Assembly: GCA_945897725.1 (NCBI GenBank) | Contig: CAMDFR010000003.1 | Location: forward strand, 1-64,000 | Length of the DNA: 64,000 nucleotides | Direction of reading: 5' to 3' | DNA from: Chitinophaga pinensis | GTDB taxonomy: Bacteria; Bacteroidota; Bacteroidia; Chitinophagales; CAMDFR01 | In this document: one piece after another, positions 1,897 through 38,303 of the stretch | Layout: each line of letters opens with the position of its first letter | Position numbering within the stretch: the stretch's first letter is position 1 | Position numbers and translations under genes: made by a program | The notes under the pieces: generated by a model | What the model was told of the DNA's origin: nothing | Seen by the model: only the letters and a program-made list of their open reading frames with translations | The model's database searches: none

Positions 1897-1935
1897 AAAT
1901 AGTCATTTGATAGCAAAACACTTCTTATCATTTTG

Positions 1936-2029
1936 GCGTGCCACCGGCAAACAAGAGCCATTGCCGCTGTCAGGCTGTACACTTGTAGGCCACAAATACA
2001 GGTGGCGCTACCGTTGCCATCCTTCACGC
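1936..2029 (+). repeat. Structured intergenic repeat, copy 1 (three-stem element)
   Basis: The closing stem pairs GCGTG (1936-1940) with CACGC (2025-2029). Arm 2 is CGGCAA (1945-1950) with TTGCCG (1961-1966). Arm 3 is TAGGCCAC (1986-1993) with GTGGC-g-CTA (2002-2010), 8 bp with one bulged G at 2007. The linker holds GGCTGTACA, and the 3' strand reads GCTACCGTTGCCATCCTT before the closing stem. The same plan recurs at 24432-24502 and 38011-38152. The short open frame across it on the plus strand is not a credible gene. Confidence 0.7.
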
Positions 2030-2988: not shown

Positions 2989-5900
2989 TTGAAAAACTGG
3001 ATTTATATTTTACTAATGTCCATGTTACTTTATTCAACCAATATGTTCGCAACACATATTGTGGGAGGAGTTATGTATTATAGATATATTGGCAGTAATA
3101 GATATGAAATCACCATGAAAATCTATAGAGATTGTGGAGATCTTATCAATACTGGATTTGATGGCGGTCTCAATAGAGATGGAACTGATGCACCTGCGTT
3201 AATCGTCTCCCTCTTTAAAGAAAGTGATAATTCCCTGCAGCAGGAAATCACAGGAATTACACCTGTCATCACACGTGTGGAACCTGTTATTACCAATCCA
3301 TGTCTTGACCCAACTAATATTTGTGTAGAAGAAGGGGTATATACTTTCACAGTAACCGTACCCAATACCACTGATGCTTTTTATGTCTCCTATTTGAGAT
3401 GCTGCAGAAACAACTCCATCGACAATCTAGTAACACCTGGCGATATAGGTTCAACAGTAACGGTCAGACTCCCTCCCATTGCAACACAATTAAATAATAA
3501 TGCCGTCTATATAAATTTCCCTCCTATATACATCTGTCAAAACTCACCACTTGTTTTTGATCACTCTGCCACCGATATCGACGGAGATTCTTTGTATTAT
3601 GAACTTTGTAATCCGCTCAATGGACTAGACAATATCGTTCCTGTAGCGAGTTCTGGTGATTCGAGATCAGTCGGACCCTATGCCCCTGTAACCTTTCTTG
3701 CTCCCTATTCTTCATCCAATCCGCTTGGCACTCCAATATTACCCGCAACGCCGATTGACATCGACCACAACACTGGTCTAATCACAGGTTCTGCTCCTAA
3801 TCTTGGCCAATTCGTAGTAGGCGTTTGTGTGCATGAGTTTAGGGATGGTGTTGAATTGTGCAATACACTCCGAGACTTTCAATTCAACGTGGTTACTTGT
3901 CCCATACCGGTTTCAAACATACCCAGCTCTCGAATCGACCCATCAACAGGCATTGGAGATTTCATTGTGAATTGCGATAATTTTGACGTCTCTTTCATCA
4001 ACCGAAGTGTAAGAGCCACAAGATACCATTGGGATTTTGGGGTTGCTGGAACAGCACTTGATACTTCTAACATTACGAGTCCTTCATTCACTTATCCAGA
4101 TAGCGGTACTTATTTGGTAACCTTAGTCTCGTATAATGATTTAAATTGCCTTGATACCGCCTCTGCCTTTGTAAAAATCTATCCTTTGACTTTCGATTTT
4201 ACATTTACCAATGAGTGCAAAGATACAGCTGTTAGATTCACCAGTAATGTCGGAAGTATCTCAGGTGGTATTGCTAGTTACTCATGGAATTTTGGAGATG
4301 CCTCTACTTCACCTGCTGCAAATCCATCACATTTGTATGCTTTGCCAGGTACCTATAGTGTTTCTTTAAGAATAAGATCTAGCAAGGGATGTGACAAAAC
4401 TGTTACCAAATCAGTTATCATTAATCCTCTTCCTGTTGCATCCTTTACCGTAGATTCTGCCTGTGTGGGCGTACCCACAGGATTCGTTAATACAAGCACA
4501 GGTTCCATTGTTAGATATAGTTGGAACTTTGGAGATGGAAGTCCTAACAGTACCGCAAGAACACCTATTCATTCTTATGCACTTGCAGGCACATACCCTG
4601 TCACACTTATCGTTTGGACAGATAGTGGATGTAGAAGTAGCATTACTCAAAATGTGATAGTGCATCCCTTGCCTATCATCATCACAAATAATGATACTAA
4701 TATTTGCCCAAGAGATACCGTACGGCTTAACGCAAGTGGTGGCAGTATTTACAAATGGACACCTTCACTTGGCTTATCTTCTACAGTTATCCCAAATCCT
4801 ATTGCAACACCAAGTATAAGTACCGACTATACCTTGCAAGTCATCGATCTCAATCGTTGCCAAAGTTTTGACACGATAAAAATTATTGTTTTTATTCTTC
4901 CATTGGTGGATGCAGGACCAGACACTTCTGTTTGCCTTGCTGCAGGAAGCTTTAGAGACAGCGCACAACTCAATGCTTCAGGTGGAGTTTCATATTTATG
5001 GACACCTTCTTTTTCTTTAAGTAATAATAGTATTGCCAATCCTTGGGCAAGTCCAGACACCAACACTTATTACTATGTAACGATTACCGATACAAATAAT
5101 TGTAAACAAAGAGATAGCGCTAGAGTAGTTGTACTTGATCCACAGATAGATATCATTACTACAAAGGATACAGGTTTATGTATTTATGATAGCATCCTCA
5201 TTAATGTCGCCGACCAAGGACTCATTACCACCTATAATTGGTCACCAACACTTGGCCTCAGCAATGCCAATACTCGACTTCCTTATTTCTTTCCATTAGA
5301 CACAACACTTTATATCCTTACCATCAGCAATTATTGTTATACAAAAAATGACAGTGTATTGGTGAAGGTATATCCGCTACCAACCATTTCAGCAGGCAAT
5401 CTCGACTCTATTTGTTATGGAGATTCGATTCAACTTGTCGCTACTGGAGGGATCATTTATAGATGGGATCCCAATAGCACACTTAGTAACGATACCATAG
5501 CAGATCCAATAGCCACTCCTTTAGTTAACAATCGTTATTTCGTAAATGTAACAGACACACTAGGCTGCTCTAATCGTGATTCCGTAGATATCCTAGTATT
5601 TCTTCCTCCAAATGCAAGAATTTTAACTTTACCGTTGAAAATTTGTCAAGGGGATACCATTACCATGCAAGCTACTGGTGGTATAAAATATGTTTGGCAC
5701 AATGGCCAAACGCTTATCACAGATAGTATTCAAAACAGTTCGGCTGCAATAATAATGGATACGATCATGTACTATGTGGATGTTGAAAATGTTCATGGAT
5801 GTCACAGCAATGATACTGTGATTATAAAACCACAATTACCTGTGCAGGCCATTGCATGGAATGATACCGCAGGCTGTCGTGGACTAGTAACTAGACTCAA

Positions 5901-6683: not shown

Positions 6684-7175
6684 ATGAAAAAAATGATTTT
6701 CTCTGCAAGTATTTGCTTGTTTTTTGTAGCAAATAGTTTTGCTCAAAATGCAACAACCACGTCTAATACCCCTTTAGCACCTCCAGTTGTTGTAAATCCG
6801 AACGCACCTAAAATTATGTTTAAAGAAAATGAGTTCGATTTCAAATCAGTGGAAGAAGGTCCTAAAGTAACACATGAGTTTCTATTTACCAACAAGGGAA
6901 AAGAAGCTTTGGTTTTATCGAATGTTAAAGCATCTTGTGGTTGTACCACTCCAGTTTGGCCTAAAGAACCTATCTTACCAGGTCAAGAAGGGAGAATATT
7001 AGTGACTTACAATACAGCGGGTAGACCAGGTCCATTTACTAAAACGATTACGATTACCTCTAATGCTGATGAGCCTAACAAAGTGATTACCATCAGGGGT
7101 GCCGTTACGTCTGTTCCGGAAAAAAATACAGTGCCCATTAAAGAAGGCAATATGTTGAGTCCTGATAACCAATAA
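6684..7175 (+). CDS. DUF1573 exported protein, 163 aa
   Basis: The signal peptide covers residues 1-20 (MKKMIFSAS...NSFAQ), followed by a Thr/Pro-rich linker and one DUF1573 domain (about residues 44-145), an immunoglobulin-like fold. Family marks are FDFKSVEEGPKVTHEF, the Cys pair in KASCGCTTPVWP, and the closing ITITSNADEP. Family members are periplasmic or surface-associated and their function is not known. The gene has its own promoter (6625-6655) and a strong terminator (7196-7226), so it is probably transcribed alone. Confidence 0.88.
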   Translation: MKKMIFSASICLFFVANSFAQNATTTSNTPLAPPVVVNPNAPKIMFKENEFDFKSVEEGPKVTHEFLFTNKGKEALVLSNVKASCGCTTPVWPKEPILPGQEGRILVTYNTAGRPGPFTKTITITSNADEPNKVITIRGAVTSVPEKNTVPIKEGNMLSPDNQ

Positions 7176-7195
7176 GTAGTTTTATTATAATCTTA

Positions 7196-7226
7196 AACGC
7201 TAACCTTCAAGTTGGCGTTTTTTTTT
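7196..7226 (+). terminator. Rho-independent terminator after the DUF1573 gene
   Basis: AACGCTAAC (7196-7204) pairs with GTTGGCGTT (7211-7219) with one T-G wobble around a six-base loop, directly followed by a run of T to 7226. Confidence 0.85.
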
Positions 7227-7382
7227 GCCTAGTGATGCATTCCTACACTTTTAAGTCCTCTTCAAATTTTTAAGCGATGAGAAACAGTAGAATACGCAAA
7301 GTAAGAAGGAACTGGAATTTGAGTTTGTTATAATTCTTGATAGAAATTGGACAGAAAACACCCACAAAAAATACTTTTTCCA

Positions 7383-7390
7383 TACCTTTG
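7383..7390 (+). promoter_or_regulatory. -7 element TACCTTTG, four bases before the aminotransferase ATG
   Basis: Perfect TAnnTTTG match. No TTTG-like -33 box is at the expected spacing. The ATG at 7395 begins four bases after the element, so the transcript would be nearly leaderless. This favours 7395 over the earlier in-frame start at 7347, which lies upstream of the promoter. Confidence 0.5.
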
Positions 7391-7394
7391 CAAC

Positions 7395-8585
7395 ATGCCA
7401 AAAATATCAACAAGAGGAAATCATATGCCATCTTCTCCAATTAGGAAGTTAGTGCCGTATGCAGAAGCAGCAAAAAAAAGAGGAATCAAAGTTTTTCATT
7501 TAAATATTGGACAACCCGATATTAAAACACCTGAAGTAGCTCTAAATGCGGTGAAAAATGCAGATCTTAAAGTGTTGGAATATTCACATAGTGCAGGGAA
7601 CGAAAGTTATCGAAAAAAACTCGCCTTGTATTATCAAAAACATGGAATCAACATTACAGAGAATCAACTCATGATTACAGTTGGAGGTTCTGAGGCTATT
7701 CAGTTCGGGCTTTATTCATGCTTAGACGCTGGTGATGAAGTTATTATTCCAGAGCCGTTTTATGCGAATTATAATGGATTTGCGACAGCCGGAGATATTA
7801 TTGTAAAACCTATCACCTCTACCATTGAAACTGGTTTTGCCTTACCTGCTATTGAAGAATTTGAAAAACTAATCACTCCTAAAACAAAAGCAATCATTAT
7901 TTGCAATCCAAATAATCCAACGGGCTATTTGTACTCAAAAGAAGAATTATTGCACTTGCGTGAAATTGTCTTGAAGCATGATTTGTATTTATTTGCCGAC
8001 GAGGTATATAGAGAATTTTGTTATGATGGACAAACACATACTTCCATATTAAACCTCGACGGGTTGGAAGAAAACGCCATTGTAGTCGATAGTATTTCTA
8101 AAAGATTTAGTGCTTGTGGGGCAAGAATAGGTTGTCTAATCACACGAAATAAAAATGTAATTGATACGGCAATGAAATTTGCTCAGGCCAGATTGAGTCC
8201 TCCGTCATTAGGGCAAATCGTTGGGGAAGCGGCATTAGACACTCCTGCCGACTATTTTGAGGAAGTGTACCAAGAATATATCTCCAGAAGAAATAATATT
8301 GTCGAAAAATTAAATTCCATCCCAGGTGTCAAATGCCCAAACCCAGGTGGCGCTTTTTATGCAATGATAGAACTACCTGTAATGGATGCCGACAAATTCT
8401 GTCAGTGGCTACTAGAAGATTTTAATTTTGAAGGAAAAACAGTGATGATGGCTCCAGGTTCTGGCTTCTATTCTACGCCAGGCATGGGTAAAAACCAGGC
8501 TAGAGTTGCTTATGTACTTAAAAATGAAGATATAAACCAAGCAGTAGAATGTTTGGCAGAAGCGCTAAAAGTATATAAAGACTAA
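7395..8585 (+). CDS. PLP-dependent class I aminotransferase, 396 aa
   Basis: Fold-type I aminotransferase of the AspC/AAT family, transferring an amino group between an amino acid and a 2-oxo acid in the cytoplasm. The PLP-binding lysine is Lys236 in VDSISKRFSACG. NPNNPTG (161-167), ADEVYREF (Asp192, Tyr195) and the C-terminal Arg in GKNQARVAYV complete the active site. A longer frame opens at 7347, but the promoter-like TACCTTTG at 7383-7390 and the usual N-terminus of the family support 7395. The substrate (aspartate, aromatic or branched-chain) cannot be decided here. It stands alone between the DUF1573 terminator and L31. Confidence 0.88.
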   Translation: MPKISTRGNHMPSSPIRKLVPYAEAAKKRGIKVFHLNIGQPDIKTPEVALNAVKNADLKVLEYSHSAGNESYRKKLALYYQKHGINITENQLMITVGGSEAIQFGLYSCLDAGDEVIIPEPFYANYNGFATAGDIIVKPITSTIETGFALPAIEEFEKLITPKTKAIIICNPNNPTGYLYSKEELLHLREIVLKHDLYLFADEVYREFCYDGQTHTSILNLDGLEENAIVVDSISKRFSACGARIGCLITRNKNVIDTAMKFAQARLSPPSLGQIVGEAALDTPADYFEEVYQEYISRRNNIVEKLNSIPGVKCPNPGGAFYAMIELPVMDADKFCQWLLEDFNFEGKTVMMAPGSGFYSTPGMGKNQARVAYVLKNEDINQAVECLAEALKVYKD

Positions 8586-24218: not shown

Positions 24219-24431
24219 GAGATAACATTTACTTCATGTGCCTATTTTAAAATAATTATACATTACCAAATGATGAACTAATTTTTGCTAAATCATTATC
24301 ACGCCCCATTGATGAACATCAAAGGCAATGCAATCACTTACTAAAAACGCCTCCCATAAAGGCTTTGAAGCTCTATGGAAACCAGAATTCTATCCTCCAC
24401 TTCACAATTTGCATCAAATCATTTTTTTGGG

Positions 24432-24502
24432 GCGTACCCGCGGCTAAAATCCCCGCGGTCGTGCTATACGCCTTACTTCGTGCCGGCTACTATCACTTAC
24501 GC
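24432..24502 (+). repeat. Structured intergenic repeat, copy 2 (shortest)
   Basis: The closing stem is GCGTA (24432-24436) with TACGC (24498-24502), against GCGTG/CACGC in the other copies, a compensated change. Arm 2 is CCGCGG (24438-24443) with CCGCGG (24453-24458). Arm 3 is weak (TA-c-GCC with GGC-TA, 24467-24472 and 24485-24489). The shared linker CGTGCTATACG and the 3' strand GGCTACTATCACT are kept. A competing pairing, GGCGTA (24431-24436) with TACGCC (24467-24472), also exists. Confidence 0.65.
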
Positions 24503-24544
24503 AGGCATTTCGTTTCTTTTTAAAACATTTATTCATTTTGTACC

Positions 24545-24606
24545 GCTCCGCTGGAGCTAAATCCTCTTCATATCATGGGTCTATGGATATGTCGCTCCTC
24601 TGGAGC
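24545..24606. repeat. Pair of GCTCC-N3-GGAGC hairpins
   Basis: GCTCC-GCT-GGAGC (24545-24557) and GCTCC-TCT-GGAGC (24594-24606), each preceded by t-c or c-c and followed by TA-rich sequence (GGAGCTAAA, GGAGCTAGA). They are two copies of one short hairpin repeat 49 bases apart. Confidence 0.6.
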
Positions 24607-24704
24607 TAGAAATGCATGAGCATGTAATTCTTCTCCGTGGCGGGTGGCTTCCCGACACAATCTAACACATACCTATTCTGTCATTCATCCCGATGGCTAT
24701 CTTC

Positions 24705-24949
24705 TCTCCGTGGCGGGTGGCGCACCCGACACAATCTCTCAACTCATTTTATTACCAAATATCAATCTGAACGAAAAACCGCGGCAATGGGTGAAGCGTG
24801 TACCATGTACAGCGAAACACATGGTGGCATTGCCTTTGCAGCTTTGGCAATGACAGCCGCCCAAATTATCTTACGAATGGATATTTTACGCGCACCAGAT
24901 GTAAGCCTTGTGCAGGGGCCTTTTGCACCTTTGCAAACTCTCCGACGCT
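24705..24949. repeat. Long unit, copy A
   Basis: 245 bases, about 95% identical by eye to 25104-25348. Positions 24764-24862 (99 bases) are identical to 25164-25262. This copy carries the dead truA end (24866-24949). The identical core can fold: ACCATGT pairs with ACATGGT, and CATTGCC pairs with GGCAATG. Confidence 0.75.
24866..24949 (-). pseudogene. truA 3'-end fragment (27 codons plus stop)
   Basis: Read on the minus strand this gives SVGEFAKVQKAPAQGLHLVR then VKYPFVR and TAA, the same as the end of the intact TruA except Thr to Ala, Ser to Arg and Lys to Arg. Frame and stop are intact but there is no upstream part; similarity ends exactly at the Ser codon, where the next repeat module begins (24951). 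It cannot encode pseudouridine synthase. Confidence 0.75.
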
Positions 24950-25103
24950 CTCTCCGTGGCGGGTGGCGCACCCGACACAAATCAACACATACCTCTTTTG
25001 TCATTCATCCCGATGGCTATCGGGAGGAAACTTCTTGCCTTAAGAGATGAATACAATTGATAAGAAAATTTTAATTGGACGATGAATCTGCTGTAGCTAA
25101 CCT

Positions 25104-25348
25104 TCTCCGTGGCGGGTGGCGCACCCGACACAATCTCTCAACTCGTTTTATTACCAAATTTTTAATCTGAACGAAAAACCGCGGCAATGGGTGAAGCGTG
25201 TACCATGTACAGCGAAACACATGGTGGCATTGCCTTTGCAGCTTTGGCAATGACAGCCGCCCGTTTATTTTACAAATGGATATTTTACGCTCACTAGATG
25301 TAAGCCTTGTGCAGGCGCCTTTTGCACCTTTGTAAACTCTCCGACGCT
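25104..25348. repeat. Long unit, copy B, overlapping the truA 3' end
   Basis: Second copy of the 245-base unit. Its right part (25265-25348) is the functional end of truA; its left part (25104-25264) is the non-coding module that lies immediately after the truA stop. Confidence 0.75.
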
Positions 25349-37964: not shown

Positions 37965-38010
37965 CATTCATTAAAGCAATCTCAATGGCATATTTATTCG
38001 ATATTTATTG

Positions 38011-38152
38011 GCGTGTCAACGGCTCATAAGTCAATAAAACACCTTGTTTCATCTTCATACTTCTTGTTGTTAGAAATAAGTCGAAAAGCCGTCGCCGTGC
38101 TGTCCGTTTGTAGTTGCAAAAAGCCGCAAGCTACCACTACCATCACTCACGC
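38011..38152 (+). repeat. Structured intergenic repeat, copy 3 (longest)
   Basis: The closing stem is GCGTG (38011-38015) with CACGC (38148-38152). Arm 2 is ACGGCT (38019-38024) with AGCCGT (38087-38092) and holds a 62-base loop. Arm 3 is TAGTTGC (38111-38117) with GCAA-g-CTA (38126-38133), 7 bp with a bulged G at 38130, the same place as in copy 1. The linker is CGTGCTGTCCG; the 3' strand is GCTACCACTACCATCACT. An 88-codon open frame covers it but has no start support and is rejected. Confidence 0.7.
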
Positions 38153-38303
38153 AAAAAACTCGATATCATTGCTACTATTTGTCTTGAATAGTAAAGATGA
38201 CAATCATTTGGATAGTACCAATGCTCACAACTACAAAAATGAAAAGGCAATATATTGTGAACAAAAAGTGAAATAGTTTATCAAAAAATCAGGTCAAAAA
38301 CTT

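Follow-up and report, generated by a model that had tools for sequence, protein, structure and literature searches.

The REP sequences and REPINs of RAYT (TnpA_REP) are high-copy intergenic palindromes that are free in orientation, form imperfect hairpins, occur in inverted pairs and are patchily distributed. The family of elements described here, which has three copies in the first 64,000 nucleotides of a Chitinophaga pinensis contig (the window), is like them in all of these respects, but its members are 59–166 nt long with three stems, whereas a REP has 20–40 nt and one stem. The GTAG of a REP (GTAG/CGTC-tagged) is an unpaired 5′ foot, whereas the GTAG present in some subtypes of our family is paired with CTAC inside the third arm, and, unlike REPINs, the family pairs in one orientation only, with no dedicated Y1 gene found. 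Because the defining foot and length of REP are lacking, we keep the family out of REP proper; it is a variant of palindromic mobile repeats. The attC sites of integrons are folded single-stranded sites with a conserved extrahelical base and little conservation of stem sequence, and the family may resemble them in its way of working only, with a folded single strand, an extrahelical base and variable stems. It differs from attC in having no R and L boxes (the GTTRRRY core is absent), in its three-arm fold and in forming inverted facing pairs, whereas attC sites form same-orientation arrays.

The TIRs of TIRYT units (Di Nocera 2013, PMC3733652) are, like the family, long inverted repeats that bound genes and belong to a genomic repeat family; they bound Y1 transposase genes, whereas our facing pairs mostly enclose spacers or unrelated genes. 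Y1 genes of subclass 2.6, mostly from Bacteroidetes, have ‘atypical secondary structures’ on their flanks, of which further copies occur elsewhere (Quentin et al. 2018, PMC6006769). Flavo-1 (RF01705) is an RNA motif of unknown function listed by Weinberg et al. 2010 (PMC2864571) as a likely RNA in Bacteroidetes, and a review ranks it with the small RNA families of highest abundance (PMC9029176). The literature on Bacteroidetes repeats otherwise held mostly nothing on the family, Flavo-1 being the only match: the Flavo-1 part is already on record, and we found no published account of the complete fold, of wobble pairs as a test, of the facing pairs or of where units end.

Materials and Methods

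The genome analysed (C. pinensis GCA_945897725.1, here G000; 2.59 Mb in 50 contigs, 85% complete) was compared with its sister genome G001 and with G002 and G003 as a genus set, with other families of the order, and with 198 genomes of the phylum. A whole-genome motif search of G000 gave 7 copies, and searches around those 7 gave 15 alignable copies, from which, aligned by sequence, the covariance model R1 was built. The helix P3 was first noticed by inspection of these initial 15 copies and is included in R1, and the hits of R1 are therefore biased towards P3. A second covariance model, R2, represents the element core and was used with a core scan for further partners. Pairing counts were controlled with shuffled alignments and with strands slid against each other. 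For arm 3 the sequence-based core alignment A6 replaces the structure-fitted alignments A3–A5, on which arm 3 counts are unreliable (∼50% paired) because the structure-fitting model misaligns arm subtypes.

Results

Three window copies share a three-stem fold

All three intergenic segments that the earlier note had singled out are present in the window, with R1 scores of 58–67 bits and 5′ starts one base earlier than it had placed them (1935, 24431 and 38010, Table 1). Their common layout of closing stem, second arm, linker and third arm is as it described, as are the bulged G at 2007 and 38130 and the change of arm 3 from GGCCAC/GTGGC in copy 1 to TTGC/GCAA in copy 3 with pairing kept. None of 100 shuffles contained the 3′ motif GCTAC-N-ATCNYTNACGC, of which the window itself has two occurrences. 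The helix P3, the frequent facing pairs, the partners of copy 2 and the partial coverage by Rfam Flavo-1 go beyond that account.

Table 1. Family copies, their parts and related features in the window
Feature	Position	Strand	Detail
Copy 1, whole element	1935..2029	+	R1 67.3 bits
Copy 1, P1 closing stem, 5′ strand GCGTG	1936..1940	+	pairs with CACGC 2025-2029
Copy 1, P2 hairpin	1942..1969	+	1942-1949 pairs with 1962-1969
Copy 1, P3 5′ strand AGG-C-TG	1972..1977	+	pairs with CA-T-CCT 2018-2023
Copy 1, arm 3, GTAG-GCCAC ... GTGGC-(bulged G 2007)-CTAC	1985..2011	+	fold
Copy 2	24431..24502	+	R1 62.7 bits
Degenerate facing partner of copy 2, core 24786-24823	24781..24861	-	R1 20.9, R2 25.1 bits
Second degenerate facing partner of copy 2, core 25186-25223	25181..25261	-	R1 20.9, R2 25.1 bits
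Copy 3, extra bases in P2 loop, bulged G 38130	38010..38152	+	R1 58 bits
Rfam Flavo-1 match opposite copy 3	38089..38157	-	25.3 bits (gathering 42), E 0.0024, sub-threshold

The closing stem P1 reads G-GCGTR/YACGC, with compensatory variants present, and the loop of P2 varies greatly in length between copies. The linker GCTRTMC and the 3′ motif ATC-n-Y together make P3, a helix of three plus two base pairs with the form RNG-C-NN...NN-T-CNY. In the 15 copies the order is arm 2, TC and RNG-C-NN, with NN-T-CNY-T near the 3′ end, and the P3 triplets differ from copy to copy (AGG/CCT, GGG/CCC, GTG/CAC, GCG/CGC, GGT/ACC and ATG/CAT). The folding energies of single copies gave no signal (z about −0.5 to +0.4), so the case for the fold rests on comparison between copies.

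Such comparison gives a consistent picture. In the 15 sequence-aligned copies 87.7% of cells pair, against 65% in shuffled alignments and 30–47% with slid strands, and 78 double changes are seen where 24 are expected. Among 109 copies of G000, gathered with a model biased towards P3, P1 is 99.4%, P2 94.8% and P3 98.7% paired, compensatory changes occur at all five pairs of P3, and double changes number 560 where shuffles give 140. In the A6 core alignment 100% of P3 cells and 91.7% of arm 3 cells pair, and 12 of 13 pairs are compensated (7 of 8 in arm 3 alone). The fold statistics were repeated in G001 (51 copies) and again in the phylum-wide copies. Although P3 was found by inspection, R1 contains it and most aligned copies are related to each other, the effect size and the slid controls make a chance origin of the pairing untenable. 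With compensation exceeding every control by a wide margin, the earlier suggestion that selection acts on a folded strand of RNA or DNA is supported.

Immediately 5′ to the 3′ strand of arm 3 stands a G in 94 of 96 copies of G000 and 40 of 43 of G001 (background 0.24), counted in those copies where the basal four-pair stem of the arm could be found. In long arms this G is a one-base bulge, as in the window copies, and in short arms it closes a three-base loop. The unpaired junction bases TC, C/T and T are also conserved, the C, C/T and T being nearly fixed. A fixed unpaired base amid freely changing stems looks like a putative protein contact.

The sequence 3′ of copy 2 carries a tandem duplication of ∼400 bp (window 24637-25261) with one minus-strand degenerate core per unit, each facing copy 2. 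A separate palindromic repeat (CTCCGCTGGAGCTA..., GTCGCTCCTCTGGAGCTA) lies at window 24540-24620, and the GGCGCTCCTACGGAGCAA repeat near the Y1 gene of locus L012 resembles it.

Copy number is patchy and most copies retrieved from the sister genome lie at shared sites

The covariance-model search proposed in the earlier note found more than 100 further copies in G000: R1 gave 105 hits, and 108 distinct copies were recognised once their surroundings were included, about one per 25 kb. Within the genus the count falls from 108 in G000 and at least 60 in G001 to 2 in G003 and 0 in G002, and genomes from other families of the order hold 0–6. Across the phylum 28 of 198 genomes have hits, which agrees with the earlier note's mention of similar elements in other Bacteroidota; copy numbers run from 0 to more than 20, with several genomes at no fewer than 20–22. 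A pattern scan returned, among the matches listed, Flavobacterium, Algibacter, Chitinophagaceae, Tannerellaceae, Sphingobacterium and others.

Similar copies are carried by 56 plasmids of Bacteroidales (Bacteroides, Phocaeicola, Parabacteroides and Butyricimonas), and in the plasmid records inspected the copy comes right after a recombinase gene. On the conjugative Bacteroides plasmids L430 and L432 (3001-3078) the stop codon of a gene of the recombinase family marks the start of the element. The single-stranded-DNA phage genome L431 (MG945641.1, Microviridae) has a shortened element in its non-coding end, at 5600-5666.

Of the 51 copies retrieved from G001, 44 are at sites orthologous to G000 copies, and there has therefore been little visible movement since the two genomes split. 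Window copy 1 has its ortholog in place (L181) with three compensated P2/P3 pairs, the counterpart of copy 2 (L176) is orthologous and decayed, and the ortholog of copy 3 (L175:10350-10490) is visibly better conserved than its surroundings. Differences at the pairs of orthologous copies comprise 31 disruptive changes, 13 compensated ones and 3 to G·T. The excess of disruptive over compensated changes means that pairing is not strictly kept in place, and thus that most of the family-wide compensation is older than the sites now occupied, which would follow if the fold mattered during copying or moving. Three loci, window copy 1 among them, changed three pairs at once, which replacement by another copy would explain.

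Wobble pairs are nearly absent and orientation is random to genes

RNA helices tolerate G·U pairs and evolve through them. In P1–P3, G·T accounts for 0.3% (5 of 1,625), 0.3% and 0.5% of standard pairs in the three copy sets; for 29 tRNAs of G000 (ARAGORN) the figure is 9.9%. All but two of 110 G000 copies are intergenic, and their orientation is random with respect to genes: of the neighbouring genes on the left, 51 are directed at the copy and 55 away from it, and convergent and divergent settings are both common. Near-absent wobble pairs and random orientation together point to folded DNA and not RNA, although both may also be compatible with a structure that must form in both strands. The choice between RNA and DNA that the earlier note had left undecided now leans to DNA, which we take as the probable folded form in the cell.

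Many G000 copies sit just past stop codons. Five copies lie within ∼400 bp of tRNA genes (30 tRNA hits), at G000:C1:98357, C21:36080, C7:4355, C23:5425 and C7:86652.

Close neighbours face each other and enclose spacers or genes

Wherever two copies in G000 lie less than 1.6 kb apart they face each other with their GGCGT ends outward (13 of 13 pairs). The same holds for close pairs in G001 (6 of 6, largely at the same loci as in G000) and at phylum-wide loci (5 of 5), and the further partners recognised with the core scan and R2, including the degenerate ones of copy 2, are facing wherever they look genuine. About 60% of copies have no recognised partner. Spacers between facing copies measure about 90–155 bp in one group and 0.5–1.5 kb in others, and in the larger ones lie genes for a helicase, an amidohydrolase-like protein or Y1 transposases, or other sequence (gene names by sequence likeness).

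A single ∼1.16 kb segment, consisting of a left element, an HNH gene and a right element, recurs at 74% identity in Mesonia (L279:1493-2651) and Flavobacterium micromati (L259:2341-3501), with homology stopping at the outer ends of the elements and differing flanks; this recurrent unit at different sites is one case, a small sample. On contig 38 of Mesonia aestuariivivens (L279 1493-2651) the unit splits a cytosine-5 DNA methylase gene, and part of the methylase is missing between the flanks. A clean empty site was not found, two further G000 regions tried against G001 being either shared or at a contig end.

Across the phylum the outer end of the element abuts TTTG, with G at position −1 in 82–95%. 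Target-specific Y1 elements (IS200/IS605) likewise abut their target sequence. A promoter reading of the T-rich left flank was rejected: the Bacteroidota −7 box is TAnnTTTG, and the TA positions of the flank do not match it.

Flavo-1 is the complement of part of one subtype

The earlier note knew of no assigned function for such elements, and in so far as the function of Flavo-1 is unknown this stands; the family itself is partly on record, as one subtype corresponds to RF01705 on the other strand. In the scanned loci all 18 gathering-level Flavo-1 hits fall on family members, every one on the opposite strand. The Rfam model reproduces P3, the one-base mismatch of P3 and the single-base bulge of arm 3, but it is unlike the family in its strand, in lacking P1 and P2 and in being labelled an sRNA. 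It covers only the (C)TATCTTTTT...AAAAAGGAT / CAAGCTGC arm-3 subtypes: for other subtypes no Flavo-1 hit was obtained in 18 further Bacteroidota loci, and none of the window copies has a match above the gathering score of 42 bits.

Discussion

On balance we think it probable that these elements form a Bacteroidota-wide dispersed family that acts as folded single-stranded DNA, in which facing pairs are the ends of units, and that they are moved or copied in trans. Each element would fold through the P1 closing stem, a P2 of variable loop, and P3 with arm 3 and its extrahelical G; two facing elements, GGCGT outward and abutting TTTG, would be the ends of a unit enclosing a short spacer, a single gene or a few genes; and a DNA enzyme that reads structure and is specific for one strand would act in trans to move or copy units and solo copies alike. 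The elements are probably the ends of mobile, often cargo-carrying units, and would be the recombination ends. The covariation, the conserved G, the near absence of wobble pairs, the random orientation, the facing pairs, the recurrent unit, the TTTG junction, the uneven copy number and the copies on plasmids and in a single-stranded-DNA phage speak for this reading. Against it weigh the 44 of 51 G001 copies at shared sites, the failure to find a clean empty site, the surplus of disruptive changes at the shared sites, the lack of a consistently linked enzyme gene, the HNH homologs elsewhere that have no elements, the ∼60% of copies without a recognised partner, the small sample of one recurrent unit and the filing of part of the family in Rfam as an sRNA. 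That the enzyme is of the HUH/Y1 kind is a guess on our part.

The same fold could be read as that of a transcribed structured RNA, either the Flavo-1 sRNA or a cis-acting element, the DNA copies being its genes. Strong covariation is compatible with this, Weinberg et al. listed Flavo-1 as a likely RNA, and RF01705 models the P3–arm 3 part of one subtype, if on the opposite strand; against it stand the G·U share of 0.3% where tRNAs have 9.9%, the orientation random to transcription and the facing-pair rule. In Flavobacterium psychrophilum, moreover, RNA-seq places Flavo-1 hits sense and antisense to transcripts alike, with many outside transcripts altogether (PMC9723704), a pattern expected if the element is DNA, and we hold the RNA reading to be improbable. 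The elements might instead be binding sites adopted by the host (for a nucleoid protein or gyrase, or with a terminator-like function) and kept for a role in place, which the many copies just after stop codons, the retention of most copies at the same sites in G001 and the conservation of copy 3 beyond its surroundings would fit. Copy numbers of 108, 60, 0 and 2 within one genus, the disruptive changes accumulating in orthologous copies and the orientation random to genes all argue against such a role, which we regard as quite improbable.

Two further readings accept mobility and name the enzyme. The elements could be the atypical REP-like structures of Bacteroidetes Y1 proteins (TnpA_REP subclass 2.6, RAYT group 5), with the Y1 proteins that each genome encodes mobilising them. 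The structures published for subclass 2.6 suit this, a bulged hairpin and a TTTG junction resemble Y1 substrates, and the link to a Y1/HUH transposase that the earlier note had thought worth looking for has some support in G000, where 4 of 7 Y1 genes have an element no more than 1.5 kb away and two are enclosed by a facing pair, but is weak overall. Those two genes gave early support to Y1 as the obvious partner, which G001, the relatives and the phylum-wide scan have since weakened. The Y1 gene of L108 has palindromes of its own and is missing in G001, where that facing pair encloses only a short spacer; Y1 loci from relatives have an element at only 1 of 28; the phylum-wide loci hold two Y1 genes among 554 ORFs, both more than 4 kb from elements; and in G032 and G034 elements occur without any Y1 hit. 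We therefore consider this reading doubtful. An HNH endonuclease moving the unit in the style of a homing element is in our judgement very improbable: at five phylum-wide loci the HNH_2 stop codon lies 4–15 bp from the inner end of the element in constant geometry, but PADLOC reads these genes as type II restriction enzymes, 30 homologous HNH loci elsewhere have no such elements bar one weak hit, G000 has 108 copies and no HNH homolog, and facing pairs with unrelated genes and without a nuclease are the common case. The adjoining HNH genes look like restriction enzymes carried as cargo. Among the 554 ORFs of the phylum-wide loci no enzyme gene was consistently linked to the elements.

Repeats of other kinds also occur in G000, some of them beside Y1 genes. 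At L018 1180-2350 (G000:C9, around 7039-8209) a subclass 2.6-type Y1 gene lies amid numerous repeats of a palindrome that belongs to it, GGTTTGTGNGGACACAAACC; G001 lacks the gene and retains one palindrome in the same facing pair. Beside another Y1 gene, around 1140-1231 of L015 (G000:C8), there is a tandem CAAGCGTCCGCTTGTGATTC array, probably the REP-like repeats of that gene itself. Two copies of another intergenic repeat, CGACYCCRAAGGGGTCGTACATCAACGACTATG...CATGCAATCCTTT.AGGATT, occur at L013 930-1150 (G000:C14).

Taking the family as mobile folded DNA, we would tentatively go one step further, to a proposal that we hold at somewhat less than even chances: Flavo-1 may not be an RNA at all but the complement of one end type of phylum-wide mobile DNA units, with three-armed single-stranded DNA ends that carry an extrahelical G, with restriction or other cargo, borne on conjugative plasmids and single-stranded-DNA phages and processed by some recombinase. 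If so, the many annotations of this ‘small RNA’ mark a piece of a mobile folded-DNA element, taken from the wrong strand, and should be revised. A scarcity of wobble pairs, if our reading of it is right, would offer a simple general test of folded DNA against folded RNA in discoveries based on covariation. Likewise, the facing-pair rule, if it is right, would provide a direct way to delimit many cargo units of Bacteroidota and to seek their enzyme.
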